The translations under genes and the position numbers were made by a program. A stretch of 64,000 nt of DNA from an uncultured Bacteroidales bacterium (lineage in GTDB: Bacteria; Bacteroidota; Bacteroidia; Bacteroidales; Paludibacteraceae), in NCBI GenBank assembly GCA_903911085.1, contig CAIWCC010000117.1, positions 1 through 64,000 on the forward strand, read 5' to 3'. Positions 32,630 to 60,797 of the stretch are shown here, piece by piece. The notes below the pieces were generated by a model. The model was not told the DNA's origin, searched no databases, and saw only the letters and a list, made by a program, of their open reading frames with translations. The number at the start of each line of letters is the position of its first letter. The first letter of the stretch is position 1.

Positions 32630-32698
32630 TATCATAAGATAATACAAGCTAATCGCAATAAGATTATAGATTTATATCTCAAAATTAATACAAATTTG
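32630..32698 (+). promoter_or_regulatory. Copy A of shared activator site and promoter (GH2-GH106)
   Basis: Half-sites TATCATAAGATAA (starts 32630) and AATCGCAATAAGA (starts 32651) are 21 bp apart. The -7-like TTTG ends at 32698, 64 nt from the start of TAAGATA (32635). The start codon at 32762 is 64 nt further. The same spacing occurs in copies B-E. Confidence 0.7.
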
Positions 32699-32761
32699 TA
32701 GTCGAATTATTATAAGTAAAATCACATATCTCCCTTAGTTATATTTTTTGAATTTAATATT

Positions 32762-35236
32762 ATGAAACGAACTTTTTTGACAGTCCTATTTTCTATACTT
32801 TTTTTGGGGTTATTTAATTTCCATGCCTTTGCTCAAACTGACGAGAATGTATTTCGAACCACAACGGTAGTTAAAGCGAAATTATCATCGGAATACACTA
32901 TGGATGAGGTTGTTAATTTTAATGTAAATTGGAAATTTCAGCTGGGTGAATTGCCCGAATTTTATGTTCCGACCTATAACGATAGCAGTTGGCGTACACT
33001 TGATGTTCCTCACGATTGGTCTGTTGAAGGGAAATTTGACAAACAAAACCCTTGTGGTAGTTCTGGTGGATTTCTTCCAACGGGAATTGGATGCTACCGT
33101 AAGCATTTTTTTATGCCCAAAGGTTCAAAGGGGAAACGGGTAAAAATAAGATTCGATGGCGTTTATATGAAATCATCGGTTTATTTGAATGGAGTGTTTT
33201 TGGGAAACAGACCGTATGGATTTAGCACGTTTGAATATGACCTTACTCCAAAGCTGAAATACGATAAAGCTGAAAATATAATTGCTGTTGAAGTGGATAA
33301 TATGTTGCAGCCAAGTGCCCGTTGGTATACTGGCTCAGGTATTAACCGAAATGTACAGCTGATAATAACCGAACAGCAACATTTCAAATCATTCGAAACT
33401 TTTATTAGAACCGAAAAGTTAACCACAAACAAAGCTGTAATTAAAATCGATTGTAAAATTATTTCCAACCAATATAATGGGAGTGATGCAGTTAAGTTTC
33501 AGAAATATCCCGAAGATGTTAAGCAGAAAATAAAACCATCAAAAATTGTAGCCCTACTAAAAAATACCAAGGGTGAATTGATAAAAGAAGTAAGCTCTAA
33601 TCAACCTTTAAGCGATTATACAGAGATTGCAGCACAATTAGAACTAAATGTTGACCAACCCATTTTGTGGTCGGATAAAAATCCATATCTGTACAATATG
33701 GAATTGCAGTTGTGGGTGGATGGAAAGTTAACAAATACAGAGCTTCATAAAATTGGAATTCGCAAAATTGAATTTAATAGTAATGAGGGGATGCTGGTAA
33801 ATGGTGAAAAGGTTGTAGTGAAGGGTCTTTGCTTGCATAAAGATGCCGGCTCGTTCGGTACTGCTGTGCCTAAAGATGTTTGGCGCTATCGTTTACAGAA
33901 ATTAAAGGCTTTAGGTTGTAATTCTATACGTACTCATGGGCCTGTAGATCCGGTTTTTATTGATTTATGCGACGAAATGGGCTTTTATATGATGGCCGAA
34001 GCTTTTGATGAATGGGACAAAACATGGGAAAATGGATACTCTGAAGATCCTTGGGGTAAATTGCCTTATACTTATAACAAATTCTTTAAACAATGGGCTG
34101 AAACCGACCTAAAGGATATGGTGAAAAGAGATAGAAATCATCCTTCGGTATTCATGTATTCGGTTGGAAATGAGGTGCCCAATCAACGTTATGCCGACGG
34201 GCCAAAAACACTCAAAATGTTGAAGGATTGGGTAAAAGAAGAAGATAATACTCGTCCGGTAATTGCAGCCTGCGACTGGGGTGCATGGGCAAATAAATCC
34301 GGGTTCATGGATACTATGGATATTGCTGGGTATAACTATCCCGACAGGTATTTCAAAAAACATTATGCTGAGGAACATGCAACTTATCCAAATCGTATTC
34401 TGTTAGGAGCTGAAAACTACCCAGATCTTGAAAACTGGATTATGGTACACGACAATCCTTATGTGGTAGGTCTTTTTTTATGGGTTGGCATTGATTACAT
34501 TGGCGAAGCAGTGCAATGGCCTCGCCGCGGTTGGGAATGGGGATTAATTGATATTGCCGGCTTCGAAAAGAGTTTGTATTATTACTGGCAGGCGTTTTGG
34601 TCGGAAAAACCAATGGTGCATATTGCAGTCAATCTGAAAGAAAAAGACAATTTTCGCTGGAAGTGCTATAACATAGCTTCGCACTGGAATTTTATTAAAA
34701 ATGACGTTGATACAGTTTTTGTTCACAGCAATACGGAAGAGGTGGAATTATTCCTAAATAATAAAAGTCTAGGGAAAAAGAAAGTTGATAAAAACACCTA
34801 CCTTGCTCAATATCAAGTTAAATATCAAGAAGGTGCTTTGAGGGCTGTCGCTTACAATCGAGGTAAAAAAGTATGTCAACACCTTCTCAAAACAGCAGAT
34901 AAACCGCATCAATTGGCATTAAATCCTGAAAAAGAAACTGTCGATTTAGCAAAAGGAGAATTGATATTTATTCCAATAGAAGTGTTAGATAAAAACGGAG
35001 TTAGATGCCCGAGTGCCATTAACAACATACAAATAAAAGTAGAAGGAGCTGGTGAATTGATTGGAATTGATTCTGGTAATCAGTTCAGCCACGAACTATA
35101 CAAAATCGATAATAGGAATGCGTATGAAGGTCGGATATTGGTGACAATAAAGCCTACAAAAAGCGGAATTGTAACAGTGAAAGCAATCTCAGATAATCTA
35201 ATAACAGGTGTAAAAACAATTAATATAATTAATTAA
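32762..35236 (+). CDS. GH2 glycoside hydrolase (beta-galactosidase/beta-glucuronidase family)
   Basis: 824 aa. The signal peptide ends AFAQ (residue 25). Order: jelly-roll sugar-binding domain (about 45-205: VPHDWSVEG, GCYRKHF, YLNGVFLG), Ig-like domain (about 206-340), TIM barrel (about 341-640) and C-terminal Ig-like domains (about 650-824). The acid/base is Glu471 in MYSVGNEVPN; the likely nucleophile is Glu551 in LLGAENYPD. GH2 enzymes remove terminal beta-linked galactose, glucuronic acid, mannose or alpha-arabinose with retention. No T9SS domain is present, so it is probably periplasmic. Its stop codon directly abuts the start of the GH106 gene, so the two are co-translated. Regulator-site copy A lies upstream. 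Confidence 0.92.
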   Translation: MKRTFLTVLFSILFLGLFNFHAFAQTDENVFRTTTVVKAKLSSEYTMDEVVNFNVNWKFQLGELPEFYVPTYNDSSWRTLDVPHDWSVEGKFDKQNPCGSSGGFLPTGIGCYRKHFFMPKGSKGKRVKIRFDGVYMKSSVYLNGVFLGNRPYGFSTFEYDLTPKLKYDKAENIIAVEVDNMLQPSARWYTGSGINRNVQLIITEQQHFKSFETFIRTEKLTTNKAVIKIDCKIISNQYNGSDAVKFQKYPEDVKQKIKPSKIVALLKNTKGELIKEVSSNQPLSDYTEIAAQLELNVDQPILWSDKNPYLYNMELQLWVDGKLTNTELHKIGIRKIEFNSNEGMLVNGEKVVVKGLCLHKDAGSFGTAVPKDVWRYRLQKLKALGCNSIRTHGPVDPVFIDLCDEMGFYMMAEAFDEWDKTWENGYSEDPWGKLPYTYNKFFKQWAETDLKDMVKRDRNHPSVFMYSVGNEVPNQRYADGPKTLKMLKDWVKEEDNTRPVIAACDWGAWANKSGFMDTMDIAGYNYPDRYFKKHYAEEHATYPNRILLGAENYPDLENWIMVHDNPYVVGLFLWVGIDYIGEAVQWPRRGWEWGLIDIAGFEKSLYYYWQAFWSEKPMVHIAVNLKEKDNFRWKCYNIASHWNFIKNDVDTVFVHSNTEEVELFLNNKSLGKKKVDKNTYLAQYQVKYQEGALRAVAYNRGKKVCQHLLKTADKPHQLALNPEKETVDLAKGELIFIPIEVLDKNGVRCPSAINNIQIKVEGAGELIGIDSGNQFSHELYKIDNRNAYEGRILVTIKPTKSGIVTVKAISDNLITGVKTINIIN

Positions 35237-38200
35237 ATGAAAAAAACAATCATTCTACTTGCTTGCTTTATTGTTGTCTGTTATCAAGTTACAGCTATTT
35301 CAAATAAGAAATCGATCCAACAAAATTCATCATTGGAGAATGGTTTTAAAAATCCTCCTGAATCAGCACGCCCCGGTGTTTATTGGTATTTCATGGATGG
35401 CAATATTTCCAAAGAAGCTATCACAGCCGATTTGGAATCCATGAAAAAAGTAGGCATAGGTCATGTACTTTTTCTGGAAGTAAATGTTGGAATTCCGCGA
35501 GGAAAAATTGATTTTTTGAGTGAAGAGTGGCAAGTCCTATTTACACATATTGTACGTGAATCAGAACGCTTGGGTATAGTCATTTCGCTCGGAGTTGGTC
35601 CCGGTTGGACTGGGAGTGGAGGTCCATGGGTTTCGGGCGCAGAGTCAATGCAGCATTTGGTAAGTAGTACAATAAAAGTGTCGGGCAATGAAAACGGGAA
35701 GATAATTCTACCAAAACCTTCACCAATTAAACCCTACTTTGGTGAAGGTGCATTTACAGCTGAACTTAAACAAAGGTGGCTCGATTATTACCAAGATATT
35801 GCGGTATTGGCATTCCCAACACCAACCAATGATTTCAAAATAAATGATATTTTGGAGAAAGCACTTTATTATAGACCACCTTATACTTCTAAAGTAGGAG
35901 TTAAAGCTTTTTTTCCATCTTTTGCAACTTACGATGAGCCACAAAATGGCAATGCGATTGCATCTAATAAAATAATAGATGTGACTCCGTTTTTGAAATC
36001 CGACAGTATTTTGGACTGGAAAGCACCAGAGGGAAATTGGACGATTATGCGCTTTGGAAGTCGAAATAATGGTGCAGTTACCCGCCCGGCACCGCTCCCC
36101 GGTGTTGGTTTTGAGGCTGATAAGTGTGATACAACTGCCATTAATGCACATTTGGCAAACTTTACAGGCAAGTTACTTGCACGAACAGGCATTCCGAATA
36201 AAAACCTACAAGGTGGTTTAAAAATGCTCCACATGGACAGCTGGGAAGTTGGCGCACAAAACTGGACTGCCAAATTACGAGCTGAATTTACAAAACGACG
36301 TGGATATGATCCACTACCATTTTATCCTGTATATGCTGGTCAAATAGTTGATAATCTGGAAAAAAGTGAACGCTTTTTGTGGGATTTGCGTCTTACTTTT
36401 CAAGAACTTGTTATAGAAAATCATGCCCAACATTTAAAAAAATATGCTCGAAAATATAATATGGGTTTTTCTATTGAACCTTATGATTTGAACCCCACTG
36501 CCGATTTGGAATTAGGCGCAGTTGCCGATGTGCCAATGTGTGAATTCTGGAGTAAAGATTTTGGCTTCAATTCTTCTTTCAGCTGTATCGAAGCTGCTTC
36601 AATTGCACATATTGAGGGTAAAAATGTGGTTGCTGCCGAAGCGTTTACGGCTCGTGCTGATGCATGGAAACAATATCCTGGTTCAATGAAAAATCAAGGT
36701 GATTGGGCTTTTGCTGCTGGTATTAATAAATTCATGTATCACACCTATCAGCACCAGTCTTTGCCCGAAAACCTAAAACCCGGAATGACCATGGGACCTT
36801 ATGGTGTGCATCACGACCGTAATCAAACATGGTGGTCAATGGCTGATGGTTATCATAGTTACGTGGCTCGGTGCCAATATGTTTTGCAACAAGGAAAAAC
36901 CGTTGCCGACATTCTTTACCTTACTCCCGAAGGTGCGCCTCAGGTTTTTCGGGCTCCGGCTACAGCATTAACAAGTACTGATGATTTCACGAATCCACCT
37001 TCAACTACCCCAAAAGATCCAAAATTGGCTGGACTAATGAAAGAGGATTTTCTTCCCGACCGCAAAGGATATAATTTTGATGGTTGTGCGCCTTCTCAAC
37101 TAATGAAAGTTTCGGTAAGTAATGGTAAAATTATTTTTCCATCGGGAGCAAATTATAGTTTGTTAGTTTTGCCAAAAACTGAAACAATGACACCAGAATT
37201 ACTGCTAAAAATTCAATCGTTGGTAAAAGCAGGTGCAGTTGTTATTGGCAATCCTCCAAGCAAGTCACCAAGTTTAGTAAATTATCCTGCATGCGACAGT
37301 CAGGTTAAGGTATTAGCATCATCAATTTGGGGAGAAGTAACTGCACCTTCGGAAATTTCAAAACTAGTATTGGGCAAAGGTAAAATTTATTGGGGTGGAG
37401 CTTTTTCTCAAATGAAACAATCGGAATTTTACCCAACTTATTACAGTACAGCTTCCTTACTTAGGGAAATGGGAATTCAAGAGGATTTTATGTCAACAGG
37501 TCAGGTAAGATATACACACCAAATTATCGGGTCGGACGATGTTTATTTTGTATCGAATAAAACTAATTCCAGCATAAATTCAAATTGCTTATTCAGGGTG
37601 AAAAAAGGAACACCGGAATTGTGGAATCCCATGACAGGTGAAATTCGTCAAATGAATGATTATGTAGTGCTTAATGGTCAAATTCAAATTCCTTTACAAT
37701 TTGAACCTTACGAAAGTTATTTTATTGTTTTTAATAAAAATGGGAAAGTCAAATCAGTAAATAATCAGTTAAGCGAAAATTTCTCCGAACCAGTTGTGCT
37801 GTCTGAAATTAGCAAGCCATGGAAAGTTTCATTCGACCCCAAATGGGGCGGTCCTGAAACTATTATATTTGACAAACTCGAAGACTGGACAACCAGAGCC
37901 GAAGAAGGAATTAAATATTATTCCGGAACAGCCATTTATCATACTGATATTGAACTCAATGAAAAAACGATTGCTGATAAAAAATCCGATATTTTTATTG
38001 ATTTGGGTGAGGTAAACAATATGGCAAGAGTATGGGTAAACGGCAAAGATATGGGTGTGGTTTGGACAGCACCATTCCGTTTGAAAATTTCCGATGCAGT
38101 AGTTGCTGGCGAAAATAAAATTGACATTGAAGTGGCAAATCTATGGCCAAATCGCTTAATTGGAGATGAACAAAAACCGGATGATGGTATTGTAAAAAAT

Positions 38201-38344
38201 CAATGGCCAGAATGGTTAAAAAATGGCACTGCAAGGACATCGGGTAGGTTTACATTCACAACATTCAAATTTTATATTAAAGATTCAAAATTATTGAAAT
38301 CGGGTTTGATGGGTCCGGTAAAAATAATAACAATTAAAAAATAG
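35237..38344 (+). CDS. GH106 alpha-L-rhamnosidase
   Basis: 1035 aa, usual for GH106. The signal peptide ends near ITAIS. The opening block FKNPPESARPGVYWYFMDGN followed by ADLESMKKVGIGHVLFLE is characteristic of this family, as are SLGVGPGWTGSGGPWV and the LHMDSWEVGAQNW block. The C-terminal part carries a galactose-binding-like jelly roll (about 870-1035: IFIDLGEVNNMARVWVNGKDMGVVWTAPF). GH106 enzymes release terminal alpha-L-rhamnose from pectin, arabinogalactan or ulvan-type oligosaccharides by inversion with a calcium ion. It begins on the base after the GH2 stop codon. Together the pair suggests sequential removal of rhamnose and a beta-linked sugar or uronic acid. Likely periplasmic. Confidence 0.92.
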   Translation: MKKTIILLACFIVVCYQVTAISNKKSIQQNSSLENGFKNPPESARPGVYWYFMDGNISKEAITADLESMKKVGIGHVLFLEVNVGIPRGKIDFLSEEWQVLFTHIVRESERLGIVISLGVGPGWTGSGGPWVSGAESMQHLVSSTIKVSGNENGKIILPKPSPIKPYFGEGAFTAELKQRWLDYYQDIAVLAFPTPTNDFKINDILEKALYYRPPYTSKVGVKAFFPSFATYDEPQNGNAIASNKIIDVTPFLKSDSILDWKAPEGNWTIMRFGSRNNGAVTRPAPLPGVGFEADKCDTTAINAHLANFTGKLLARTGIPNKNLQGGLKMLHMDSWEVGAQNWTAKLRAEFTKRRGYDPLPFYPVYAGQIVDNLEKSERFLWDLRLTFQELVIENHAQHLKKYARKYNMGFSIEPYDLNPTADLELGAVADVPMCEFWSKDFGFNSSFSCIEAASIAHIEGKNVVAAEAFTARADAWKQYPGSMKNQGDWAFAAGINKFMYHTYQHQSLPENLKPGMTMGPYGVHHDRNQTWWSMADGYHSYVARCQYVLQQGKTVADILYLTPEGAPQVFRAPATALTSTDDFTNPPSTTPKDPKLAGLMKEDFLPDRKGYNFDGCAPSQLMKVSVSNGKIIFPSGANYSLLVLPKTETMTPELLLKIQSLVKAGAVVIGNPPSKSPSLVNYPACDSQVKVLASSIWGEVTAPSEISKLVLGKGKIYWGGAFSQMKQSEFYPTYYSTASLLREMGIQEDFMSTGQVRYTHQIIGSDDVYFVSNKTNSSINSNCLFRVKKGTPELWNPMTGEIRQMNDYVVLNGQIQIPLQFEPYESYFIVFNKNGKVKSVNNQLSENFSEPVVLSEISKPWKVSFDPKWGGPETIIFDKLEDWTTRAEEGIKYYSGTAIYHTDIELNEKTIADKKSDIFIDLGEVNNMARVWVNGKDMGVVWTAPFRLKISDAVVAGENKIDIEVANLWPNRLIGDEQKPDDGIVKNQWPEWLKNGTARTSGRFTFTTFKFYIKDSKLLKSGLMGPVKIITIKK

Positions 38345-38764: not shown

Positions 38765-38833
38765 AATCGTAAGATAGTGCAATAAAATCGCTGAAAAATT
38801 ATATATTATTCTCATAAAAGAAGTGGATATTTG
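38765..38833 (+). promoter_or_regulatory. Copy B of shared activator site and promoter (beta-helix 1)
   Basis: Half-sites TAATCGTAAGATAG (AATCG at 38766) and AATCGCTGAAAAA (38787) are 21 bp apart. GATATTTG, a one-mismatch -7 box, ends at 38833, 64 nt from the start of TAAGATA (38770). The sequence GGATATTTGCACC is shared exactly with copy C. The leader to the ATG at 39101 is long (267 nt). Confidence 0.75.
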
Positions 38834-39100: not shown

Positions 39101-42100
39101 ATGAAAAAATGCATTCTACTCTTAATTTTTGCCACAACTGCGTTTTTTGCAAATGCGCAACTTATTACCAATGGCGATTTTGAAGCTGCTGTCGGTGGCT
39201 ATACCGTTGTTGAATCAACAACAAATGTACTGAAACGTGTTACTAATTTTTATGATGCTACAACACAAATAACGTTTCCTACTTTAGCAAGTAGTGATGC
39301 AGTTGCTACCGGACAATGGGTAAAAAGAGCTCCTGCCGATGTCTTGGCAAAGGGGATAATTTTTTCAACTACAGGTCGTAATGCTACTGCAACAAATTGT
39401 TTAAACCTGAAAATTGGAATAAATTCAGCTGTTGCTGGTTACAACAACTCTTTTGCAATGCTTGCTGTTCAAAGACTTACAGGATTATTAAATGACAAAA
39501 GATACGTGGTTTCTTTCTGGGCAAAACAAGATGGAACAGCCAATAACAGATGTGTAGGCGTTAATGTTGTATTGGGCGATAATGTTGTTAAATCAACAAC
39601 TGTTCCGCTGACTGTAGGAGCAATGCTTACTGGTGCCACTACCTGGACAGAATATACAGTGGTATTAGATATTCCAAAATATGTTGCATCAAACCCTACA
39701 GCGGATTTTACTACAGCCGAATTTGGTTTTGCCATAACTACTCCTATTGCAGCATCCAAAACTGCTTATGCTGGTGTTTTAATAGATGATGTTGTAATGA
39801 CAGAACTTACTACACCTACAATTATGTATGTTAAACCTGTTGCTACAGGTACTGGTGATGGCACTTCGTGGGCAGATGCTACTGATGATATTCAGACAGC
39901 GATAAACTCATTAACGTATGGCGAAGTAAGAGTAGCTGCTGGAACCTATACCCCCGCTGCTACCATTACGCTAAAAACTGGAGTAAACCTTATGGGCGCT
40001 TACGCCGACGATGGTTCTGGTACACGTGATATCTGGAACAATCAAACCATACTTGATGGAGCAGGAACTAAACGATTATTAATGAATAGCTTTAGTTCAA
40101 ATCCATTCAAATATACTACAATGGTAAATGGCTTTATTCTCCAAAATGGATATTCTGATTTAGGTTCTGCAGCATCGTTGAGTTTAGGTACAGTATTGGA
40201 AAATTGCATTATTAGGAACAATAGTGGAACTACAAAAGGTGCCGCCGTTTATTTTAGTCGCAATACAAGTGTTTCTGGATCAGGCTACAGTACAAATTAT
40301 CAAAATTCAGGTGGTTTAATAAATTGTGTTGTTATCAATAATTCTTCAACTGGTGGTTCAGGTGCAGTGTATGGTGAGGCAAATACACTTTTCGGGCTTA
40401 TAAATTGTGTTATCGCTAATAATAAATGTACAGAGGCAACTACAGGAACTGGAGGAGTTTATATTGGTGGTAGCGCTCAATGGGCGCACCTTCAAAATTG
40501 TATATTATACAATAACAGTGGTGCGTCAACCAATTATAATAATTTAAGAAATAATACACTTGCAACTCCTGTTGCATTAAATGGCATTCTAAGCAATTGG
40601 TTTGATAATAATTCATCAATAAATACTTCAGGTGTTGGTAACTTTTATTTGCATGCTACTAATTCAACAAACAATAAATTTAGCAATAATATTGCTACTC
40701 CAAATTTTGAACGACCAACCAATTTTCAAGGTGTACCAGCAGATGCAGACCAGTTAGCAGCACTTGAGGCCTCGAACTGGAGATTAAAATCCACTTCAGG
40801 CTTAATAGGACTAGGAAATTCTACTCAAAATGTAAAATTCCCGTACGAAAATATTAATGCAATTCTTGTTGCAACAACTGGTGGTAGAGCCTTTACCGAC
40901 ATTTCTAAAGACATTATGGGAAATGAACGCATTATAAATACAACCGTTGATTTGGGAGCCTACGAGTATAATCCAGTGGTGGTTACTGCTACAAATGGTG
41001 CAAATGGAACAGCTGCCGGTGGTATCACGGTTAGTAAGGGTACAACGGTAACTTTAACATCTAGCCCATCGGCTGGCTATGGATTATCTAATTGGACAAA
41101 TGGTGCTACTGTTGTCTCTACAAGCCCAAGTTATACTTTTGTTCCTTCTGGCGATTGTACCATTCAAGCTAATTTTATTACTGCGTGGGTTATTTCTGCT
41201 ACTGCCACTAACGGTAGTGTAACTGGTACGGGTACAATAAATGATGGTTCTAGCATTTCACTTGTAGCTACACCCAACGCCGGTTATGGTTTTGTAAACT
41301 GGACGGAAGGTGCAACGGTAGTTTCTACAAGTGCAACATACACATTCAATGCAGCTTCAAATAGATCATTGGTTGCTAACTTTGCAGCTAGCACAGTATC
41401 AGTTTCCCAAACTACACGCACAGGTTTTGCTTATACTTACAATGCTGGTCCTTCTTCAGAGCAATCATTTACTGTAGCTGGATCAAATTTGAATGGAGAT
41501 ATTACCATAACGCCTCCAACAAATTACGAAATTTCTACTGCTACTGGTGGCTTTTTCATTGGTATAAATCCATTAACTCTAACCCCAAGTAACGGCACTT
41601 TAGGTACTACAACCATATATGTTCGGTTAAGAACAGGTTTGGGGGTAGCAAATTACAATTCCGAAAACATAACAATTGCAACTACAGGTATTAGTGATCA
41701 AAATGTTGCATGTTCGGGAAGTGTAAATGGAATCACTCCAACTGTAACTGTAACTCCTATTGGTACTTATACTTATACCGGTTCACCTCAAGGACCAATT
41801 GCTGCTACTACAGGTGGTTCTGCTGGAGCAGTAACTTTCAGTTACGAAGGTACTGGTTACGGACCAACTGATGTACTTCCAACTGCTGCTGGTTCTTACA
41901 CAGCAACGGCAACAGTAGCTGCAAATGGAAATTATGCTTCAGGAATTTCAGCGGCAACTCCGTTTACAATTGCTAAAGTAGCATTAACCATTACCGCCGG
42001 AAATCAATCGGTAGCTTTTGGTACAGCGGCTTCCACCGTAAATGGTGCTGGAACATATACGCCAGCTGGCTTTGTAAATAATGAAACTGCAAGTGTTATT

Positions 42101-43801: not shown

Positions 43802-43810
43802 TAATAAAGA

Positions 43811-43876
43811 CTACTCAGCATTCAGCTAATTTTTTAATCTAATGATTACAAAATTTGTTGGGCGCTGAGTTTTTTC
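43811..43876 (+). terminator. Terminator after beta-helix paralogue 1
   Basis: ACTCAGC (43813-43819) pairs with GCTGAGT (43864-43870), which is followed by a run of T. The loop is long (about 44 nt) and AT-rich. Stem plus T tract supports rho-independent termination, though the large loop weakens it. Confidence 0.45.
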
Positions 43877-43963
43877 ATTTTGTACAGTCGTACTTCGACG
43901 TTGGCGCGGGTCTGAAATAATAATAAGATAAAAAACTGTCATTAATAATTGTGAATTACTTAT

Positions 43964-44890: not shown

Positions 44891-44904
44891 ACTTTACGGA
44901 TTTT

Positions 44905-44973: not shown

Positions 44974-45154
44974 CACCTACATTAAAGCATCTAATTTTCA
45001 GTAAGAATATCGTTAAAAGCATTGTGTAATAATAAGGGTAATACTACTTATATAATCTTCGAGAGTTAATTTTTTTTTTTTGCGCATTATTAACAAAATC
45101 AGACACGTAACACGTAACTCGTAACTACTTATTACTAACTTTAAAATAAACAAA

Positions 45155-49822: not shown

Positions 49823-49890
49823 ATTAACCATACTATTGAGTAAATTTCATAAAAATACATTCTAACATTTGGTTAATATTAGTTTTGTAG

Positions 49891-49922
49891 TCGGGAAGAT
49901 TTTTTAATTTAAATCTTCCCGA
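49891..49922 (+). terminator. Terminator after beta-helix paralogue 3
   Basis: TCGGGAAGATTT and AAATCTTCCCGA make a perfect 12-bp stem with an 8-nt loop, 68 nt after the stop codon. It is homologous to the terminator at 47308-47343. Confidence 0.75.
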
Positions 49923-50015
49923 TATATAGACTTTTTGCTTAAAAATAGCCAATATTAACTAGAATTTAATATCAAATTAATAAAATTACAAACTATAAAT
50001 TAAAAACAATCAAAA

Positions 50016-52244
50016 ATGAAAAAAATTACTTTTATCTTATTTTTTGCTTTGACAAGTTTCATGGCAAATGCGCAAATTATTACCAATGGTGATTTTGAAA
50101 CTGCTGGTACAATTAAACGTGTTACAAATTTTTACGATGCTGCAATTCAGGGAACCAATCCTACTGCCACAGCGGGCGAAGCTGTTGCTGCCGGACAATG
50201 GGTAAAAAGAGCATTGGATGATGCAAAGGCAACGGCAGTAATTACTACAGGTGGTCATACTGCTAATTGTTTAAATTTAAAAATAGCTACAACAAATAAC
50301 GCTGCTTACACCAATTCATTGGCATTTCTTGCTGTACAAAAACTTACAGGTTTGGATAATACCAAGCGATACCTTGTTACTTTTTGGGCAAAACAAGATG
50401 CAACCACCACAAACAACTGTCATGGTGTAAATGTAGTTTTGGGCGATAATGTTGTAAAGTCATTATCTGCTCCGCTCACTGTTGGAACAATGCTTACGGG
50501 AGGAGTAAACTGGACACAATACACGGTGGTATTGGATTTACCAAAATACATTGTTTCAAACCCAACAGCAGATTTCAGTACGGCTGAATTCGGATTCGCC
50601 ATTACTGTAAAAGCTACTACAGCAGCTGCAGGAATTTTGATAGACGATGTTGTAATGACAGAGCTTACAACACCTACAGTTGCTTATGTAAAACCAGTTG
50701 CTTCAGGTACTGGCGATGGTTCATCTTGGGAAAATGCCTCAGCAGATATTCAAACAGCAATTAATTCATTGATATACGGCGAAGTAAGAGTAGCTGCTGG
50801 AACGTATACCCCAGATGCAACCATTTCGCTCAAAGATGGAGTTAACCTGATGGGTGCTTATGCAGCCGATGGTTCGGGAACACGCGATATCTGGAACAAT
50901 AAAACCATACTTGATGGAGCTGGAACAAAACGCATAATAATGAATAGCTCTAGTTCAAATCCATTCAAATATGCTACAATGGTAAATGGCTTTATTCTCC
51001 AAAATGGATATTCTGATTTAGGTTCGGCAGCATCGTTGAGCTTAGGTGCTGTATTGGAAAATTGCATTATTAGAAACAATACTGGAACTACTAAGGGTGC
51101 CGCTGTTTATTTTAGTCGCAACACATCGATATCTGGTTCCGCTTACAGTACAAACTACCAAGCTGCAGGTTCTTTAATTAACTGCCTTATCATCAACAAT
51201 TCATCAACCGGTGGTGCAGGTGCAGTATATGGAGATGCGAATTCACTTTTTGGAATTGTAAATTGTGTGATTGCCAATAATACTTGTAGCGAAGCAACCA
51301 CCGGGACTGGTGGGCTTTATATTGGACTTAGTGATCAATGGTTTCATCTTCAGAACAGTATATTTTATAACAATAGCGGAGCAACTACAGCTTTAAATAA
51401 TGTAAAAAATGCTACTACCACAACTTTATCAGCAACTCTTAATAACTGGTTTAGCGACGCAACTATGCCTCTTACATATACTGCAGGCAAATTATCTGCC
51501 AATAATAAATCGGCAGCCGATGTGGCCACTCCTGGATTTGAACTACCTACTTCATTTCAAGGTGCAACTACTGATCCTGCTAAACTTGCGGAATATGAAA
51601 CTTGTAACTGGAGATTGAAATCTACATCGGGATTAATTGGATTAGGAAATGCTACTCAAAACTTAAGAGTACCTTACGAAAATATTAATGCAATTGTTTT
51701 GGTAACAACTGGTGGTAGAGCTTATACAGATATTGCTACTGACTTAATGGGAAGTGCTCGCGTAATAAATACAACTGCTGATTTGGGAGTTTACGAGTAC
51801 AATCCGGTAGTTGTAACAGCACTTTCGAGCGATGATACAAAAGGAACTGTAGCTGGTGGTATTACCGTAAGTAAAGGAACTTCTGTAACACTTACTTCAA
51901 GCCCTGCTAGCGGACAAAAACTTATTGACTGGAATGATGGTGTTTCAGATGTTTCTACCGCAGTAGATTACACATTTGTACCAATGGCTGATGTAACTGT
52001 AACTGCCACTTTTGATGTAATCTCAGGTTTATCTAAGAATATTCAAGACAATTTTGTTACAGTTGATGGACGTAACATTACAATAAAAGGCGAAGGTACA
52101 ATTGAAATTTATTCTGCTGTAGGTAAATTGGTGTTGAAACAAGCACTCAATGGATCTGTAGTATCACTTGGCGATAATGGTATTTACTTAGTAAAAGTAA
52201 GTAATGCTAAAGGTGTTAAAATTCAAAAGATAGTAGTTCGTTAA
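50016..52244 (+). CDS. T9SS-secreted right-handed beta-helix protein (paralogue 4, mosaic)
   Basis: 742 aa. The signal peptide (MKKITFILFFALTSFMANAQ) is that of paralogue 3. The sandwich domain and beta-helix (about 21-610: VAYVKPVASGTGDGSSWENAS, NLMGAYAADGSGTRDIWNNK, GLIGLGNATQNLRVPYENIN) follow paralogue 1 instead. One InlB-like repeat (about 612-672) also matches paralogue 1. The sorting domain (about 682-742, GRNITIKGEGTIEIYSAVGKL) is again of the paralogue 2/3 type. The gene is thus a chimera. It precedes the PL8 lyase by 88 nt. Role as for its paralogues. Confidence 0.8.
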   Translation: MKKITFILFFALTSFMANAQIITNGDFETAGTIKRVTNFYDAAIQGTNPTATAGEAVAAGQWVKRALDDAKATAVITTGGHTANCLNLKIATTNNAAYTNSLAFLAVQKLTGLDNTKRYLVTFWAKQDATTTNNCHGVNVVLGDNVVKSLSAPLTVGTMLTGGVNWTQYTVVLDLPKYIVSNPTADFSTAEFGFAITVKATTAAAGILIDDVVMTELTTPTVAYVKPVASGTGDGSSWENASADIQTAINSLIYGEVRVAAGTYTPDATISLKDGVNLMGAYAADGSGTRDIWNNKTILDGAGTKRIIMNSSSSNPFKYATMVNGFILQNGYSDLGSAASLSLGAVLENCIIRNNTGTTKGAAVYFSRNTSISGSAYSTNYQAAGSLINCLIINNSSTGGAGAVYGDANSLFGIVNCVIANNTCSEATTGTGGLYIGLSDQWFHLQNSIFYNNSGATTALNNVKNATTTTLSATLNNWFSDATMPLTYTAGKLSANNKSAADVATPGFELPTSFQGATTDPAKLAEYETCNWRLKSTSGLIGLGNATQNLRVPYENINAIVLVTTGGRAYTDIATDLMGSARVINTTADLGVYEYNPVVVTALSSDDTKGTVAGGITVSKGTSVTLTSSPASGQKLIDWNDGVSDVSTAVDYTFVPMADVTVTATFDVISGLSKNIQDNFVTVDGRNITIKGEGTIEIYSAVGKLVLKQALNGSVVSLGDNGIYLVKVSNAKGVKIQKIVVR

Positions 52245-52332: not shown

Positions 52333-54786
52333 ATGATAAAAAAAATAATATTTTTAAGTGTCCTTTTTGTTACAAATCATCTTATTTGTTTTGGTCAAAT
52401 TGATACAGTTGCCAATCGGTTAAGAAATGAGAATATCAACAAAGTTGTTGCAGATTCAAAGATTACCGGTTACTTAACTATCTTCAAAACAGATGGTAGT
52501 TATACGGATATAGACTATACAAGTACCGCTGGCACTGCATGGCCACAATTGGACCATTTAAATAGATTGTTGGAAATATGTATTGTATATAACAAGCCAA
52601 GTAGTAGTTTTTATCATTCGGCCAATCTGAAAGCTAAAATAAAAAGTAGTTTTGACTTTTTTGCGGCCTTACCAGTAAAATCCATTAATTGGTGGTATGA
52701 GGCTATTGGTATTCCTATCATATATGGTCCTGCATTGATATTGATGAAAACAAATGATGCTTTTGGTTTTGATCAAGCTACTTTGAATGCCTATTCAGCG
52801 GCTCGTCTTAAGTTTTTTGCACAATCAATTGCCCTTTGGCCTGGTGCCTCAACTGGTGCAAATAAAGTTTGGTTGCTAAATGGCTCCATCTATAAAGCTG
52901 CTATCGAAAACGACGCAACTACATTAAAATCTAACTTTGCATCGGTTTTTAGCGAAGTAAAAGTTGCTACTACTTCATCTGATGGAATCAAGCAAGATTT
53001 TAGTTATTATCAACACGGACCCCAATTATATTGTGCGGGATATGGAATGGCGTTTCTTTCGGATGTTACTTATTTTGGTCTAATCTCCAATAATACAGAG
53101 TTTCAGATGTCTAGCGCTCAAATCAAGTTATTGTCAGACGTTACAATTGAAGGTTATCATTGGTTTGCTCATAAAACAGCATACGATTTTGGTAGTAATG
53201 GGCGTGAAATTTCCAGATCAGCTTCAATGTCTACTGGTGGGCTGGTTACAATTATTGATCGGTTAATATCCTTGAATGCTCCACGAATAACAGAATTGCA
53301 AAAATGCAAAAGTTATCTTAACGGAACTGCCGACTTTCAGGCTCCAGGTAATAAGCACTACTGGAAAATGGATATGATGGTTCAACATGGAACAAATTTT
53401 TATTTATCAGCCAAATTTCCATCTAAAAGAACAGTTGGTACAGAATGGATGAATGGCGAAAATTTAAAAGCGAAAAATTTATCGTGGGGTGCAACCAATA
53501 TAATGAATAGCGGTACTGAATACAAAGGTATTTTTGCTACTTGGGATTGGAGCATTATACCTGGCGTAACAAGTTGTAAAGAAACAATTGCTAAGTTTCC
53601 AACATCTGGAGGTAAAAATTTAATTCCTCTTTCAAGCTTTGCCGGAGGTGTGTCCAATGGTTCGTATGGTTTTGCAGCCTACGATTTTACAGGATTTACA
53701 AGTAATACTGATAGTTACGTTGATATTGTGGCTCGTAAATCGTATTTCTTCACGCCCGAAGCCATGTATTGTATGGGAGTTGGCATCGATGCCAATAAAA
53801 CAAATCCTGTTATTACTGCCATTAATCAATGTTATTCAGTAGGTGATGTAACAGTAAATGTTGGTGGTGTTAAATCCATTTTTGCCGACACGCTTAGAAA
53901 TTACCGCCTCACTACTCTAAATTGGTTGCACCACAATCAAGTAGGTTATTTCTTCCCAACCATTGGAAATAATATTTATGTTGGAAATAAAAATCAATCT
54001 GGAGCATGGTATGATATAAATACTTCTGAAAGTAAAACAAAACTAACCAACAAAGTATTTAGTGCATGGTTTAATCACACTAACATGCCTGTAAACGGTA
54101 AATACGAATACATTGTAGTTCCTGCAAAAAATATAAGTCAATTTGAAACGTGGACTACAACAAATCCATTGAAATCCATTGTTAATGAAAGAACCAAACA
54201 AGCCATTTATGATAAAAATGCAGGTATCTATGGTGTCGTTTTTTATGCAGTTGACAGTGTTGTACTTGAAAGTAATCTTAAAGTGTGGGCTGACAAACCA
54301 TGTATTATGTTAATTCAGTATGTAAATGCTACCAAAACTTATAAAATATCGGTTGCCGATCCTTCGGCAAGTAGTGCAGATGTAACTATTAAATTATCCA
54401 AAAAACTATCTGGAAGTGGTGTTACAAATAATTTGGATAATACTTCAAGTATAAGATTTGTTTTGCCTACCGGCGAAAATTTGACAAAAACAGTTACTGC
54501 GGATTTTCAGGATATTGGTGTAAGCGGATTGAATAATACAAATGAAGACAGTAGAGTAGTAATATCACCGAATCCTGTTACCGACATTTTAAACATTAGA
54601 ACTAATGGGATAGTAAATCCTAAAATTCAGATAGTTGAAATAAGCGGTAAAGTGCTTTTTCAAATGATACCAAAGAATGAAAATGTATCTATAAATATTA
54701 AAAATAAAATAAATAATGGAATCTACTTTGTAAGAGTAGTAGGTGTAAATTATTCAAACAGTGTAAAAATTATTGTTTGTCGATAA
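52333..54786 (+). CDS. T9SS-secreted PL8 polysaccharide lyase (chondroitin AC lyase-like)
   Basis: 817 aa with a signal peptide (ICFGQ, residue 22). Residues about 30-340 form an (alpha/alpha) toroid, about 345-700 the antiparallel beta-sandwich domains, and about 740-817 a T9SS sorting domain (VVISPNPVTDILNI, GIYFVRVVG). The PL8 catalytic residues are visible: Asn177 in STGANKVW, His228 and Tyr237 in QHGPQLYCAGYG, and Arg291 in GREISRS. This set and its numbering sit close to those of Pedobacter heparinus chondroitin AC lyase (His225, Tyr234, Arg288). PL8 enzymes cleave hyaluronan, chondroitin or xanthan next to a uronic acid by beta-elimination. The real substrate here is unknown. It is probably surface-located and makes the oligosaccharides for import. 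Confidence 0.92.
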   Translation: MIKKIIFLSVLFVTNHLICFGQIDTVANRLRNENINKVVADSKITGYLTIFKTDGSYTDIDYTSTAGTAWPQLDHLNRLLEICIVYNKPSSSFYHSANLKAKIKSSFDFFAALPVKSINWWYEAIGIPIIYGPALILMKTNDAFGFDQATLNAYSAARLKFFAQSIALWPGASTGANKVWLLNGSIYKAAIENDATTLKSNFASVFSEVKVATTSSDGIKQDFSYYQHGPQLYCAGYGMAFLSDVTYFGLISNNTEFQMSSAQIKLLSDVTIEGYHWFAHKTAYDFGSNGREISRSASMSTGGLVTIIDRLISLNAPRITELQKCKSYLNGTADFQAPGNKHYWKMDMMVQHGTNFYLSAKFPSKRTVGTEWMNGENLKAKNLSWGATNIMNSGTEYKGIFATWDWSIIPGVTSCKETIAKFPTSGGKNLIPLSSFAGGVSNGSYGFAAYDFTGFTSNTDSYVDIVARKSYFFTPEAMYCMGVGIDANKTNPVITAINQCYSVGDVTVNVGGVKSIFADTLRNYRLTTLNWLHHNQVGYFFPTIGNNIYVGNKNQSGAWYDINTSESKTKLTNKVFSAWFNHTNMPVNGKYEYIVVPAKNISQFETWTTTNPLKSIVNERTKQAIYDKNAGIYGVVFYAVDSVVLESNLKVWADKPCIMLIQYVNATKTYKISVADPSASSADVTIKLSKKLSGSGVTNNLDNTSSIRFVLPTGENLTKTVTADFQDIGVSGLNNTNEDSRVVISPNPVTDILNIRTNGIVNPKIQIVEISGKVLFQMIPKNENVSINIKNKINNGIYFVRVVGVNYSNSVKIIVCR

Positions 54787-54990: not shown

Positions 54991-55875
54991 TTATCTTTCT
55001 CTCTCTCTATATTTTGATGGCGAAACACCAATTATTTTGCCAAAAATTCTACTGAAATAGGCAGCGTCGTCAAATCCGAGTTTTGGGTAAATGTCGGAAA
55101 TTTTAATATTAGATAACTCAAGATATTCGCACGCTTTCTGTATTTTAAGTGTTATGTAGTATTTTATTGGTGACTGCTTTGTCTCTTCCTGAAAAAGAAC
55201 TGAAAAATGAGATGGTGAAAATCCAAAATGAGATGCTAATTGATCCAAAGTGAGATTTGTGTGGAGATTTTCACGCATAAAATAAATTACTTTTTCGCTG
55301 AAGCGTTGTTCGGTATCAATATGCGACCGTACATGTCTGAATTGATCTAGGTATTTGAATGATGCTAAAAAGTGAAAAAGACAATTTGATGCATAACAAT
55401 AATGATCTATTTGATGGCTCAATTCGAGATTTTCATAAATTTCTTCGAATAGATTGATACGATCTTCAAGCCGAGAATTATTTCCGGGTAGAATTTGACG
55501 GGGTACAACTGGCATCATGTAGAAATTTGATGACATTTTCCCCATAAAGTGTATAAAATATAAGGTCCAAGGGTTTTTTTTATCAGCACCGAAACTATGT
55601 GGAATGTCCTGAGGGAGTATTACAAATTCGTTTTCCTTGACTTTGTAATATTTTTCTCCGATAGTGTACCAGCCTTCGCCAGAAACGCAATACATCAAAA
55701 TATTATAATTAACCCCTTTGTCTTTGTTAACATAATGGTATTTTACTGAAGGAAAAAAACCAATTTTACGTATATATAGGTTTTTTAAAATGGGATGATT
55801 ATCGCATTTTTCAAGAATTTCAGAGCTTACCGTTATCACTCTTTGTCCTTTGAAACCTTCCCTAATTTGTGGCAT
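54991..55875 (-). CDS. AraC-family transcriptional regulator
   Basis: 294 aa. An N-terminal cupin-type sensing domain (about 37-115: YNILMYCVSGEGWYTIGEKYY, NEFVILPQDIPHSFGAD) is joined to a C-terminal double HTH (about 193-292: LTLDQLASHFGFSPSHFSVLF and KISDIYPKLGFDDAAYFSRIFGK). Such regulators bind a sugar and activate genes by binding direct repeats. It is divergent from the PMI-ROK-MFS operon, with 193 nt between the start codons. Copy D of a 21-bp-spaced direct repeat lies there. I infer that this protein binds all five copies. It ends in a (CT)n tract encoding RERER. Confidence 0.95.
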   Translation of the reverse strand: MPQIREGFKGQRVITVSSEILEKCDNHPILKNLYIRKIGFFPSVKYHYVNKDKGVNYNILMYCVSGEGWYTIGEKYYKVKENEFVILPQDIPHSFGADKKNPWTLYFIHFMGKMSSNFYMMPVVPRQILPGNNSRLEDRINLFEEIYENLELSHQIDHYCYASNCLFHFLASFKYLDQFRHVRSHIDTEQRFSEKVIYFMRENLHTNLTLDQLASHFGFSPSHFSVLFQEETKQSPIKYYITLKIQKACEYLELSNIKISDIYPKLGFDDAAYFSRIFGKIIGVSPSKYRERER

Positions 55876-55890
55876 ATTATATAATTTTTT

Positions 55891-55959
55891 AATCGTAAGA
55901 TAGTCTAAGATAATCGCAACAAAGTTATATATTTATATTCAAAAATAAGATGAATTTTG
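55891..55959 (+). promoter_or_regulatory. Copy D of shared activator site and promoter (PMI-ROK-MFS)
   Basis: Half-sites AATCGTAAGATAG (55891) and AATCGCAACAAAG (55912, start at the A before ATCGC) are 21 bp apart and agree at most positions. GAATTTTG, a weak -7 box, ends at 55959, 64 nt from the start of TAAGATA (55896). The site is also just upstream of the araC start, so it could serve autoregulation. Confidence 0.75.
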
Positions 55960-57823: not shown

Positions 57824-58933
57824 ATGTACGAATTTGATAAACGCATAGTGATGACGCTTGATGGTGGGGGAACAAACTTTGTTTTTTCTGCAATTCAAGA
57901 GCACCAGGAAATTGTAAAATCAATTCATTTGCCTTCAAATGGACATGATTTAAATCTGTGTTTAGAGTCTATCTTTTTAGGTTTTGCCAAGGTTAAAGAG
58001 CAGCTGTCATCTGAACCAGTAGCAATTAGTTTTGCATTTCCAGGTCCTGCCGATTATGCAAATGGTATTATCGGAGAGCTCCAGAATTTAAAAGCTTTTC
58101 GGCAACCAATAGCATTAGGTCCTATTCTCGAAGAAAAATTTGGGATTCCAGTTTTTATAAACAATGATGGAAATTTATATGCTCTGGGCGAAGCATTAGG
58201 TGGTTTCTTGCCCGAGATAAACAAAAGACTTGAAGCAGCAGAAAATCCTAAAAGGTATAAGAATTTACTGGCATTAACTTTAGGCACGGGTTTTGGCTCT
58301 GGCTTTATTAACGATGGAAAATTAGTATGGGGCGACAATGGATGTGCAGCAAATATTTGGGCTTACAGGCACAAAAAATTTGAAAATTGTATAACAGAAG
58401 AAAGTGTTGGAGCAGCAGCCATTAAAAGATTGTATGCTGAATTTTCTGGAGATTTTGAATCTCAACTAACACCAAAAGATATATTTGATGTTGCTGATGG
58501 AAAGAAAAATGGCGATCAAAAAGCTGCACAGCAAGCATTTGCTGAACTTGGCGAGGAGGCTGGAAATGTAATTGCACATGCAATATCTATTATTGATGGA
58601 TTAGTGGTTATTGGAGGTGGAATTAGTGGCGCTGCGAAATTTTTTATGCCGTCATTAATTAGAGAAGTTAATTCTCAAATTAGAAAGTTAAATGGCGATT
58701 GTTTTCCTAGACTAGAGATGAAAGCCTATAACCTTGAAGATGACATTGAACTCAATGAGTTTATTGCACCTAATCAACAATATATTGAGGTTTTAGGGTC
58801 AGTCAAAAAAGCTTTGTACGATTCATCCAAACGTATTGGAATTGCCATTACCAAACTTGGTACAAGCAGAGCAATAGCTCTCGGCGCTTATACTTTTGCA
58901 TTGAATAAACTCGATGAAAATAAATCGTTTTAA
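57824..58933 (+). CDS. ROK-family sugar kinase-like protein
   Basis: 369 aa, cytoplasmic. The ATP phosphate motif LDGGGTNFVFSAI (12-24, Asp13), the sugar-binding/catalytic block INNDGNLYALGE (Asp115 as base) and LTLGTGFGSGFINDGKLVWGDNG (about 151-173) are those of ROK kinases such as glucokinase or fructokinase. The zinc-binding CxCGxxGC motif usual in the family is absent; the corresponding place reads FENCITEESVGA. There is no N-terminal HTH, so it is an enzyme rather than a ROK repressor. It likely phosphorylates the hexose brought in by the neighbouring MFS carrier and feeds the PMI-like enzyme encoded 12 nt upstream. The exact sugar is unknown. Confidence 0.88.
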   Translation: MYEFDKRIVMTLDGGGTNFVFSAIQEHQEIVKSIHLPSNGHDLNLCLESIFLGFAKVKEQLSSEPVAISFAFPGPADYANGIIGELQNLKAFRQPIALGPILEEKFGIPVFINNDGNLYALGEALGGFLPEINKRLEAAENPKRYKNLLALTLGTGFGSGFINDGKLVWGDNGCAANIWAYRHKKFENCITEESVGAAAIKRLYAEFSGDFESQLTPKDIFDVADGKKNGDQKAAQQAFAELGEEAGNVIAHAISIIDGLVVIGGGISGAAKFFMPSLIREVNSQIRKLNGDCFPRLEMKAYNLEDDIELNEFIAPNQQYIEVLGSVKKALYDSSKRIGIAITKLGTSRAIALGAYTFALNKLDENKSF

Positions 58934-58990: not shown

Positions 58991-60145
58991 ATGAATAAAT
59001 CTACAACTTCAAAAGTGCTTCCTGTGTTATTTGGCTTCTTTATCATGGGTTTTTGCGATGTAGTGGGAATAACTTCTGCGCATGTTAAAAACGATTTTGG
59101 CTTGAGTGACACAATGTCAAATATGATTCCAGTAGCATTATTTTCAATGTTTTTGCTTTTCTCAATTCCAACAGGAATTTTAATGAATAAAATTGGACGA
59201 AAGCGAACAGTTTTAGCAAGTAATGTTATTACAATTATTGCAATGTTTTTGCCATTAATTGGTTATTCATTTGCCATTTCATTAGTGGCATTTGCTTTAC
59301 TTGGAATAGCCAATACGATTTTGCAAGTGTCATTAAATCCTCTGCTAACCAATGTTGTAAAAGGAAATATGCTCACAAGTAATCTTACAGCTGGTCAATT
59401 TATAAAAGCAATTTCTTCTTTTTCAGCTCCTTTTATAGCTGTTTTTGCTACAGAGTATCTTGGAAGTTGGCAAATGATTTTTCCAATTTATGCAGGCATC
59501 ACAGTACTTTCTACTATTTGGTTGATGAGTACACCTATCGAAGAGCTTGATGTACAGAACAAAATATCCACTTTTAGCGAAGTGTTTGATTTGTTGAAGG
59601 ACAAGACCATTTTTCAATTATTTTTGGGAATTTTATTTGTTGTGGGGGTAGATGTTGGATTAAACACAGTAGCATCAAAAGTGTTAATGGAAAGATGTGG
59701 ATTGCAAATTGCTGACGCTGGTTATGGTTCTAGTATCTATTTTGCCTTTCGTACCATTGGTGCTTTTACAGGCACCTATTTCCTTGCAAAATTTTCTTCC
59801 GAAAGATTTTTTAAAATTAATGTTTTAATTGCTATCTTGGCAATAGTTGTGCTTATTTTCACTTCTTCTAAATTTTTAATTTTTGCGTTATATGGGATAA
59901 TTGGTTTTAGTATTTCTAATGTTTTTCCAATTATTTATGCTCATGCAATTTTTTTACGCCCCAACAAAACGAATGAAATTTCTGGTTTGATGATTACCGG
60001 TGTGATAGGTGGTGCAATTATTCCAGTTATAATGGGATTATTGTCAGATGCTTTTCACTCACAAGTAGGTGCATTGATAGTTATTTTGATAAGTTCATTG
60101 TATCTTTTGTATTGTGCATTTGTAGTGGCCGAAAAGAAACTATGA
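58991..60145 (+). CDS. MFS sugar transporter
   Basis: 384 aa with about 12 hydrophobic segments. The canonical MFS loop 2-3 motif is present as GILMNKIGRKRT. LPVLFGFFIMGFCDVVGITS at the N-terminus and a long central loop (STPIEELDVQNKISTFSEVFDLLKDK, in parts) between segments 6 and 7 fit sugar-type carriers of the major facilitator superfamily. Probably a proton symporter of the inner membrane that imports the monosaccharide released in the periplasm. It is third in the PMI-ROK-MFS operon, 57 nt after the kinase gene. Confidence 0.9.
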   Translation: MNKSTTSKVLPVLFGFFIMGFCDVVGITSAHVKNDFGLSDTMSNMIPVALFSMFLLFSIPTGILMNKIGRKRTVLASNVITIIAMFLPLIGYSFAISLVAFALLGIANTILQVSLNPLLTNVVKGNMLTSNLTAGQFIKAISSFSAPFIAVFATEYLGSWQMIFPIYAGITVLSTIWLMSTPIEELDVQNKISTFSEVFDLLKDKTIFQLFLGILFVVGVDVGLNTVASKVLMERCGLQIADAGYGSSIYFAFRTIGAFTGTYFLAKFSSERFFKINVLIAILAIVVLIFTSSKFLIFALYGIIGFSISNVFPIIYAHAIFLRPNKTNEISGLMITGVIGGAIIPVIMGLLSDAFHSQVGALIVILISSLYLLYCAFVVAEKKL

Positions 60146-60797
60146 TTGCTAGATAGCTGAAATGTGAATTGTAATAATATTTACAAATTCGTTTTAAAGT
60201 GTATATGATAATCTCTCTAAATTTTAAAAGTTAGGTTTTTTATTTAAATCTCAACAATTAATCCACACCATTCTTACTATTAATATTGACTCTTGATGTT
60301 CCGATATTGACGGGACAATAATACTTCCTTAATACTTTCAATTGCATTATACAGTAATAATCTTCATTTGCTTTATCTGAAAGTTTACAACAGCAATAAT
60401 TATTATACCTCGTAAAAATTAAGATATTTACATTTCTGACTGCTATGTGTGTATTATTGCAGGCCGAAATGTTTAATGTTTAATTTTTGGTGACATTACG
60501 GCAATCAATAAAATTGGCTTATAAGCAAATACGGAATTTTATATTGTTTTTTTTAAGCATGTGTTTTTTGACAAGTCGATATTGATTATTGCCAATCGAA
60601 ATATAGTCCAAGTAAATCAGAATAATATGATACTTTATTTGAAAAAAGCATGGGTATTTTTGTATGCTGTTATATATGCTGAAATTTCAGATTTGAAATG
60701 ATAAAAATGAATTGCAGCTTTCGTTATTTTTCTTGATTGATCTTATAAAAAATATCGTTATATTACTAATAATCTTAAATTTAAAATTATTTTGCTT
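60146..60797. other. 652-bp intergenic region upstream of susC
   Basis: No gene or strong hairpin is seen in the first ~440 nt. At 60594-60662 it carries regulator-site copy E with a perfect -7 box. About 135 nt of AT-rich leader then precede the susC start. Confidence 0.7.
60594..60662 (+). promoter_or_regulatory. Copy E of shared activator site and promoter (susC)
   Basis: Half-sites AATCGAAATATAG (60594) and AATCAGAATAATA (60615) are 21 bp apart. TATTTTTG (60655-60662) is a perfect TAnnTTTG -7 box and ends exactly at the position predicted from copies A-D. The agreement in spacing is stronger evidence than the sequence match alone. Confidence 0.75.

Follow-up and report, generated by a model that had tools for sequence, protein, structure and literature searches.

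A predicted AraC-family regulon that resembles a mannose regulon and extends to a rhamnosidase/SusC cluster in an uncultured Bacteroidales bacterium

The gene cluster and its predicted sites

Control of polysaccharide clusters in the Bacteroidota is commonly ascribed to hybrid two-component systems, SusR or ECF sigma factors. The stretch of DNA analysed here (the window) comprises the first 64 kb of a 134.6-kb contig from the 6.25-Mb genome of an uncultured Bacteroidales bacterium. It carries genes for glycosidases, a lyase and a SusC/RagA transporter, together with the gene of an AraC-family regulator and five sites of one layout, A to E (Table 1). At 17248-23285 the window also holds an ECF sigma factor gene, two FecR-type anti-sigma genes and a gene for a TonB-dependent receptor with an STN domain; this cluster has a different control of its own and is without an AraC site.

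Table 1. Features of the window and further predicted sites of the same genome (C numbers, other positions of the genome)
Feature	Position	Strand	Remarks
Site A	32630-32698	+	boxes from 32630 and 32651 (second AATC); TTTG at 32695-32698; putative promoter of GH2-GH106
GH2 protein, beta-galactosidase-like	32762-35236	+	Pfam; PDB GH2 beta-galactosidases
GH106 alpha-L-rhamnosidase	35237-38344	+	Pfam PF17132, E 5e-175
Site B	38765-38833	+	second AATC at 38786; would drive the 1566-aa protein at 39101 (leader of about 262 nt)
Large protein following site B; type IX secretion tail	39101-43801	+	domain-family matches
Site C	44905-44973	+	second AATC at 44926; would drive the 696-aa protein at 45155
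Protein following site C; type IX secretion tail	45155-47245	+	domain-family matches
PL8 lyase	52333-54786		chondroitinase AC-like; xanthan lyases among relatives
AraC-family regulator, 294 aa	54991-55875	-	N-terminal cupin sensor, C-terminal double helix-turn-helix; Pfam PF02311, PF12833, PF00165
Site D	55891-55959	+	second AATC at 55912; between araC (minus strand) and PMI-ROK-MFS; orthologues carry a site at the same position
TAACTTTG	55920-55927	-	candidate for araC's own -7 box, within the second box of site D
Mannose-6-phosphate-isomerase-like (PMI-like) protein, 580 aa	56069-57811	+	residues 223-451 match PDB 1qwr (E 4e-12)
ROK-family protein, probable sugar kinase	57824-58933	+	Pfam PF00480
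MFS transporter, GluP/FucP-like	58991-60145	+	Pfam PF07690; TIGR01272 below cut-off
Site E	60594-60662	+	second AATC at 60615; putative promoter of susC and the genes after it
SusC/RagA outer-membrane transporter	60792-63932	+	TIGR04056; probable SusD (putative) at contig position 63947
Further site	C47:3360		R1 E 5.6e-14, outside R1 training; downstream, protein without Pfam family
Further site	C45:23593		R1 E 1.8e-5, outside R1 training; downstream, GH127-like protein
Further site	C117:83481 (also given as 83482)		R1 E 0.016, outside R1 training; downstream, aldo/keto reductase, two GH106, GH43

The PMI-like protein has no Pfam or NCBIfam match of its own, and is 57% identical to a Parabacteroides protein annotated as class I mannose-6-phosphate isomerase. 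Site C may perhaps also drive the genes up to the PL8 lyase. A first-pass annotation of this DNA had tied GH2-GH106, PMI-ROK-MFS, susC and two 'beta-helix' genes into one regulon. Sites stand in front of all of these, but the beta-helix label is not confirmed for the proteins at 39101 and 45155, in which we found no such Pfam family and no PDB relative beyond the secretion tail; the latter protein shows a weak NCBIfam choice-of-anchor Q match (0.00036), and its AlphaFold model is poor (mean pLDDT 43). The region 39101-52244 contains four paralogues, the other three being 84, 53 and 48% identical to the protein at 45155. Two of the four are first genes after AraC sites, and the secretion tail is found in those at 39101 and 45155.

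In each of the five sites, all intergenic according to the window's ORF table, the second AATC follows 21 bp after the first box, and TTTG occupies positions +44 to +47 counted from that AATC. The sites align without gaps over 71 bp (MAFFT). When leave-one-out matrices were used, each held-out site (5/5) topped all other non-training positions of the window on both strands, with two-box scores of 25.0 to 45.2 bits; with the five-site matrix, the best non-site position reached 8.8, as opposed to at least 44.9 for the training sites. The ungapped layout with boxes 21 bp apart, as first described, is thus borne out by the positions in 5/5 sites, the alignment and the held-out matrices, and the 64 nt then counted from the start of the core to the end of the TTTG are right in all five. 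As to the site starts, those of A, D and E stand, whereas B and C begin one base earlier than had been given. An exact degenerate pattern proved too strict, recovering site D only, and Rfam at gathering scores gave no match across the window.

Self-similarity within the sites is best at 21 bp among offsets of 12-32 (mean identity 0.52, next 0.44), as in a direct repeat of about this distance, and was equalled in 19 of 5000 column permutations with 11 sites and in 71 of 5000 with the window five alone. Each box is strongly conserved between sites, whereas the two boxes of one site are only about half identical to each other. The five-site observation is confirmed as real.

A sequence profile built from the five window sites (R1) was run over the whole genome. 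It returned the five training sites (site A, for example, at E 7.5e-14) and then three more down to E 0.016, followed by a gap to the next row at 0.15, with 15 rows at E<=1 in all; matches did not scatter at random, and it was random scatter that had been named beforehand as an outcome speaking against the regulon. The three additional sites sit between ORFs of at least 120 aa and have TTTG at the same place as the window five. The regulon is therefore larger than the five sites of the first-pass annotation, with eight predicted sites in the genome, six of them on the window's contig. All eight show the geometry of a pair of direct half-sites separated by two turns and adjoining the -33/-35 region. 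The araI1-I2 site of E. coli AraC is likewise a pair of direct half-sites, spaced by 21 bp and adjacent to the promoter.

Could the likeness of the sites merely reflect recent common descent, the five being copies of one duplicated promoter segment? Site A and the C47 site do have common flanks (82% over 154 bp), as do site E and C117:83482 (77% over 71 bp, reaching 35 bp upstream), and for some other pairs the blastn pieces run slightly past the core. Against this, the remaining site pairs are only 0.21-0.45 identical in register over 100 bp on either side, and the same boxes and spacing stand in front of orthologues in other families. On the flank comparison we therefore rejected the idea that the sites are alike through recent duplication, the pairs A/C47 and E/C117:83482 excepted, and we regard this explanation as highly improbable for the set of five. 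Promoter copying may nevertheless be the origin of single sites. The proteins at 29046-32600 of the window and at L054:3687-5383 (C47) have near-identical N-termini and no Pfam family; the former lies just before site A, and the latter has a site-A-like site in front. Promoter shuffling is possible.

The AraC-family protein and the recurrence of its predicted site

The regulator matches PF02311 at E 2.3e-11 and PF12833/PF00165 at E 1e-18 and 1.7e-21; Pfam assigns it only AraC and cupin families, with no kinase or receiver domain found. With its double helix-turn-helix and cupin, it has the make-up of an AraC/XylS one-component regulator. Its AlphaFold model is good (mean pLDDT 89.9), and in Foldseek the sensor domain matches BgaR (TMt 0.67-0.73) and AraC (2arc, 0.62). 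The cupin-type sensor fold is therefore one that it shares with E. coli AraC and with the lactose sensor BgaR (PDB 6nwj), from which it differs in sequence (12-18% identity over the fold matches), in the probable sugar and in that the window system goes with a -7 box of the Bacteroidota kind.

The clean tests of recurrence are those made with R1 and with the five-site matrix. Over 60 relatives, own genome included, R1 gave E values below 1e-9 outside the own genome only in G007 (one site) and G005 (two sites); nothing better than 3.3e-4 was found in the other 57 genomes. The G007 site and one G005 site adjoin an AraC orthologue (66% and 64% identity, respectively), and the second G005 site adjoins a broken araC copy. 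At this last locus (L057, G005:C61:24537-24978) the copy is broken by one stop, with an intact type I site (the type to which the window sites belong) beside it, and the genes that follow look like ROK and MFS by their first residues.

An AraC-alignment search of genome contigs was used to collect orthologues, and the best 80 of 582 relatives found were taken, 40 of which, at 46-68% identity (L063-L101 and L104), make up the orthologue set. A site was counted where the window-five repeat matrix scored at least 14 bits within 400 bp upstream, reading away from araC. By this measure a site lies upstream of 31 of the 40 orthologues and at two of the remaining 40 loci (L110, L133). In 23 of the 31, TTTG is at the same place, and in the opposite orientation these loci score at most 7.0 bits, as opposed to the threshold of 14. 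The nine orthologues lacking a site by the window-five matrix are L069, L070, L074, L079, L081, L095, L099, L101 and L104, of which a slightly shorter matrix recovers L079 and L101. As a control, seven of the 40 loci score at least 14 elsewhere in the locus; six of these scores are further sites of the same layout (L067, L074, L075, L084, L095, L099), and the extra score in L076 is without explanation.

A second profile, R2, was trained on many orthologue sites and all eight own sites, and it found a match at E<=0.01 in 38 of 39 orthologue genomes (a partly circular figure; L069 of the 40 loci was left out), with eight in the own genome and zero to four in the others. Under stricter filters, no match at E<=0.001 was found in the 197 other sampled genomes of the class (198 with the own); in a class sample of the same size, four of the 197 others have a homologue at E<=1e-60, all 37-41% identical. 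In addition, a Parabacteroides distasonis plasmid record, which was in no model's training, carries a type I site that separates araC from a row of genes for a hypothetical protein, a class I mannose-6-phosphate isomerase, ROK and GH92. Relatedness among rows inflates these counts: L065/L066 are the same places as G007/G005, L008 is L137, and L090/L093 are near copies. On these comparisons the predicted AraC sites are real and conserved.

A related site, type II, is common upstream of more distant homologues and has TTTG at the same position. Among 96 regulators, 36 were labelled type I, 33 type II and 27 neither, the opposite-orientation control giving one match for type I and none for type II; the type II matrix had been trained on eight loci, seven of them among the 33 rows and one the same place as another row. 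A quick tree (SH-aLRT only, midpoint root) was computed from 95 of the 96 rows, leaving out the 107-aa fragment L104. It places 41 regulators in one clade (support 100), comprising 35 with type I and six with neither type; the other 54 divide into 33 with type II, 20 with none and one with type I (L110, 15.2 bits). Two changes between type I and type II are needed. Site type follows the regulator tree, with type II prevailing outside the type I clade, whose type I rows span seven NCBI family names.

Chitinophaga regulators (L090, L093, L096) nest in a clade rich in Parabacteroides, while Flavobacterium regulators are the group into which the window protein falls; the module may therefore have moved between families.

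Having assigned the sites to the adjacent AraC gene, as did the first-pass annotation, we would note that another AraC-type protein, either a hybrid two-component regulator or the own paralogue at C2:5266, might bind them, the protein at 54991 being a mere neighbour. According to an excerpt of PMC3878776, direct repeats spaced by 21 bp on average also serve the hybrid two-component regulators of Bacteroides, and long frames ending in an AraC-type domain occur in this genome, such as the 1357-aa frame at C25:16015. However, type I goes with this AraC's clade across the seven family names and is absent at E<=0.001 from the 197 sampled class genomes, and L133, only 40% identical by tblastn, falls inside the clade and carries type I. 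The C2 paralogue has a type II site of its own, outside the type II training, and no type I site, and was rejected as the binder. We judge a different binder very unlikely. The AraC protein at 54991-55875 is very probably the regulator of the type I sites, because the site recurs at its orthologues (31 of 40), is absent at E<=0.001 from sampled class genomes without a close orthologue (0 of 197) and has a type that tracks the regulator tree.

The paralogue (L061, G000:C2:5266-6156) is divergent from a gene for an MFS-like sugar porter, followed by a 942-aa ORF, and perhaps runs a second sugar regulon.

Neighbouring genes and the likely signal

The first gene was read after 34 araC-adjacent type I sites, i.e. 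the 36 type I rows minus L097 and L110, with the second G005 copy also left out. It is PMI-like in 22, six-hairpin glycosidase-like in eight and a GH92 alpha-mannosidase in four, lying 2.5 kb off in L067 and 0.5 kb off in L066. The gene order at the G007 araC locus is PMI-like, SusC-like, probable SusD (putative), GH76 and GH92. Part of the non-araC R2 rows of other genomes was also examined, the weaker ones being left out. Of the 14 non-araC sites examined in other genomes, five have GH92 or GH38 first (L074, L095, L186, L190 at 1.6 kb, L191) and five a six-hairpin-type gene by Pfam or blastp (L067, L094, L187, L188, L189); among the other four, L075 and L084 are alike by eye only, the weak site L192 is followed by an esterase, and L099 by no clear gene.

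The 435-aa six-hairpin family (L073:3599-4906, L085, L086 and others), which supplies the first gene of eight of the 34 loci, has weak Pfam matches, and a search of the PDB gave nothing at E<=0.01. It is a candidate new glycosidase family.

Since PMI-like, GH92, GH38 and GH76 genes recur beside the orthologous sites, the signal points to mannose or mannosides, and we consider mannose or a mannose derivative the likely effector. In the window, site D before PMI-ROK-MFS and site E before susC would, by their positions, put the PMI genes and susC under one regulator. This mannose signal is carried over from the orthologues, because in the own genome the two GH92 genes (on C39 and C225) have no R2 match at E<=0.01 on their contigs, no GH38 was found, and at the seven non-araC sites no first gene is a mannosidase (GH92/GH38) by Pfam.

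The same observation gives some weight to a different effector, for instance L-rhamnose, a uronic acid or some further constituent of the polymer that is degraded: no first gene at the own sites is an alpha-mannosidase, GH106 is among the genes that follow these sites, and site C has a PL8-type lyase downstream. The recurrence of mannose-related genes beside the orthologous sites argues the other way, and we think a non-mannose effector somewhat unlikely. We thus keep mannose as the signal and read the type I regulon as one that looks like a mannose regulon, extended here to the rhamnosidase/SusC cluster; in this reading, it would have moved to a cluster with GH106, GH2, the PL8 lyase and susC. 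The polymer could well be a gum that contains mannose, uronic acid and rhamnose.

Proposed mechanism and relation to known systems

Promoter boxes were counted in 55 sites, 34 araC-adjacent (without the weak L075 and L097 and the marginal L110) and 21 others. The -7 box of the Bacteroidota housekeeping promoter has the consensus TAnnTTTG, as given in an excerpt of PMC7366714. Its TTTG is present in 28 of the 34, 21 of the 21 and 8 of the 8 own sites, and the full TAnnTTTG in 35 of the 55. The '-7-like box' of the first-pass annotation holds for the TTTG in all five window sites, but the full consensus is found in only two of the eight own sites (E and C117:83482).

Some 22 bp separate the end of the boxes from the -7 position, and TTTG occurs in the -33 zone in only 3 of the 55 sites, site E being one of the three. 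This rarity is as expected if the activator replaces that contact, although Flavobacterium johnsoniae in general likewise showed no -33 motif, as far as the excerpted text of PMC7366714 goes.

In the araC-adjacent sites, the second box itself holds a reversed -7 box: it reads CAAAnnTA, the reverse complement of TAnnTTTG, in register in 24 of the 34, as opposed to 1 of the 21 others (site C; Fisher 1.0e-6, with rows treated as independent despite their kinship). In the window, this element lies about 45 bp from the araC start codon, and 6 of the 7 own non-araC sites are without it. Because the second box overlaps the reversed -7 box, self-limitation of araC is suggested. By the same token, binding at site D and at most orthologous sites should hinder araC transcription, which raises the question of whether the protein represses these promoters or acts on them in both ways. 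For the target genes, boxes that end about 22 bp before the -7 box, in place of a -33 element, fit activation instead, and we hold repression or dual control there to be unlikely.

We therefore favour activation at the target genes and propose, with good confidence, that the AraC protein is a soluble one-component sensor of an ancestral mannose or mannoside regulon, acting via the 21-bp boxes. The sites, their geometry, their co-distribution with the regulator and the neighbouring genes are seen in the sequences, from which binding, activation, effector and self-repression are inferred. Thus, the protein would bind mannose or a mannose derivative, and the sugar-bound dimer would occupy the pair of direct boxes with their 21-bp spacing. 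These lie upstream of the -7 box TTTG by about two helical turns, in the usual place of a -33 element, from where the dimer would recruit RNA polymerase (class II activation). At the divergent araC promoter, binding would shut off araC while opening PMI-ROK-MFS. The seven further own sites would bring in GH2-GH106, the two secreted proteins, susC, aldo/keto reductase-GH106, the GH127-like gene and the C47 gene, so that the degradation cluster as a whole would be turned on by mannose freed from a mixed polymer.

Several known systems share parts of this arrangement. First, in the AraC-like hybrid two-component (HTCS) regulons of Bacteroides thetaiotaomicron, the direct repeats are on average 21 bp apart (Ravcheev et al. 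2013, PMC3878776, in excerpt). The likeness extends to an AraC-type DNA-binding domain and control of PUL genes including SusC/SusD; unlike them, the window regulator is a 294-aa soluble protein with no periplasmic sensor, kinase or receiver. Second, ManR of the same species (BT2103, GntR family) is described in that excerpt as controlling mannose uptake, conversion to fructose 6-phosphate, SusC/SusD and extracellular glycosidases (PMC3878776). The regulon predicted here from site positions would likewise join mannose metabolism with SusC/SusD and glycosidases. ManR is GntR-type, whereas the window regulator is AraC-type without a GntR domain (Pfam), and the extracellular targets of ManR are oligo-alpha-mannosidases (PMC3878776, same excerpt), as opposed to GH2, GH106 and others here. 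Third, RhaR (BT3768) is likewise an AraC-family regulator of a monosaccharide pathway in B. thetaiotaomicron, but it controls a single rhamnose operon (PMC3878776, same excerpt). The regulator described here would be an additional member of the AraC kind, ManR-like in its working but not ManR, and HTCS-like in site spacing but not an HTCS. Among the titles and abstracts listed from the open-licence PMC literature, we found no paper on this family in searches for an AraC-type mannose regulator of Bacteroidota. What is new is the first-gene pattern of the type I sites (PMI-like, six-hairpin, GH92), the mannose reading and the reversed -7 box.

A wider proposal, to which we give about an even chance, is that an AraC clade over several Bacteroidota families, so far undescribed, senses mannose, and that its operator box is the regulator's own reversed -7 box, which would couple activation of mannose genes to regulator shut-off. 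Here the element would have spread purely as an activator site, in most cases having no reversed -7 box, and would be placing a rhamnosidase-rich SusC cluster under a cytoplasmic monosaccharide switch rather than the usual membrane sensor. The system is a one-component regulator with a well-defined predicted site, whose regulon can be read from sequence across many genomes. The two clades, whose site types track the protein tree, lend themselves to mapping how AraC proteins recognise DNA, and the window offers a direct test of how a monosaccharide regulon widens to a polysaccharide cluster.
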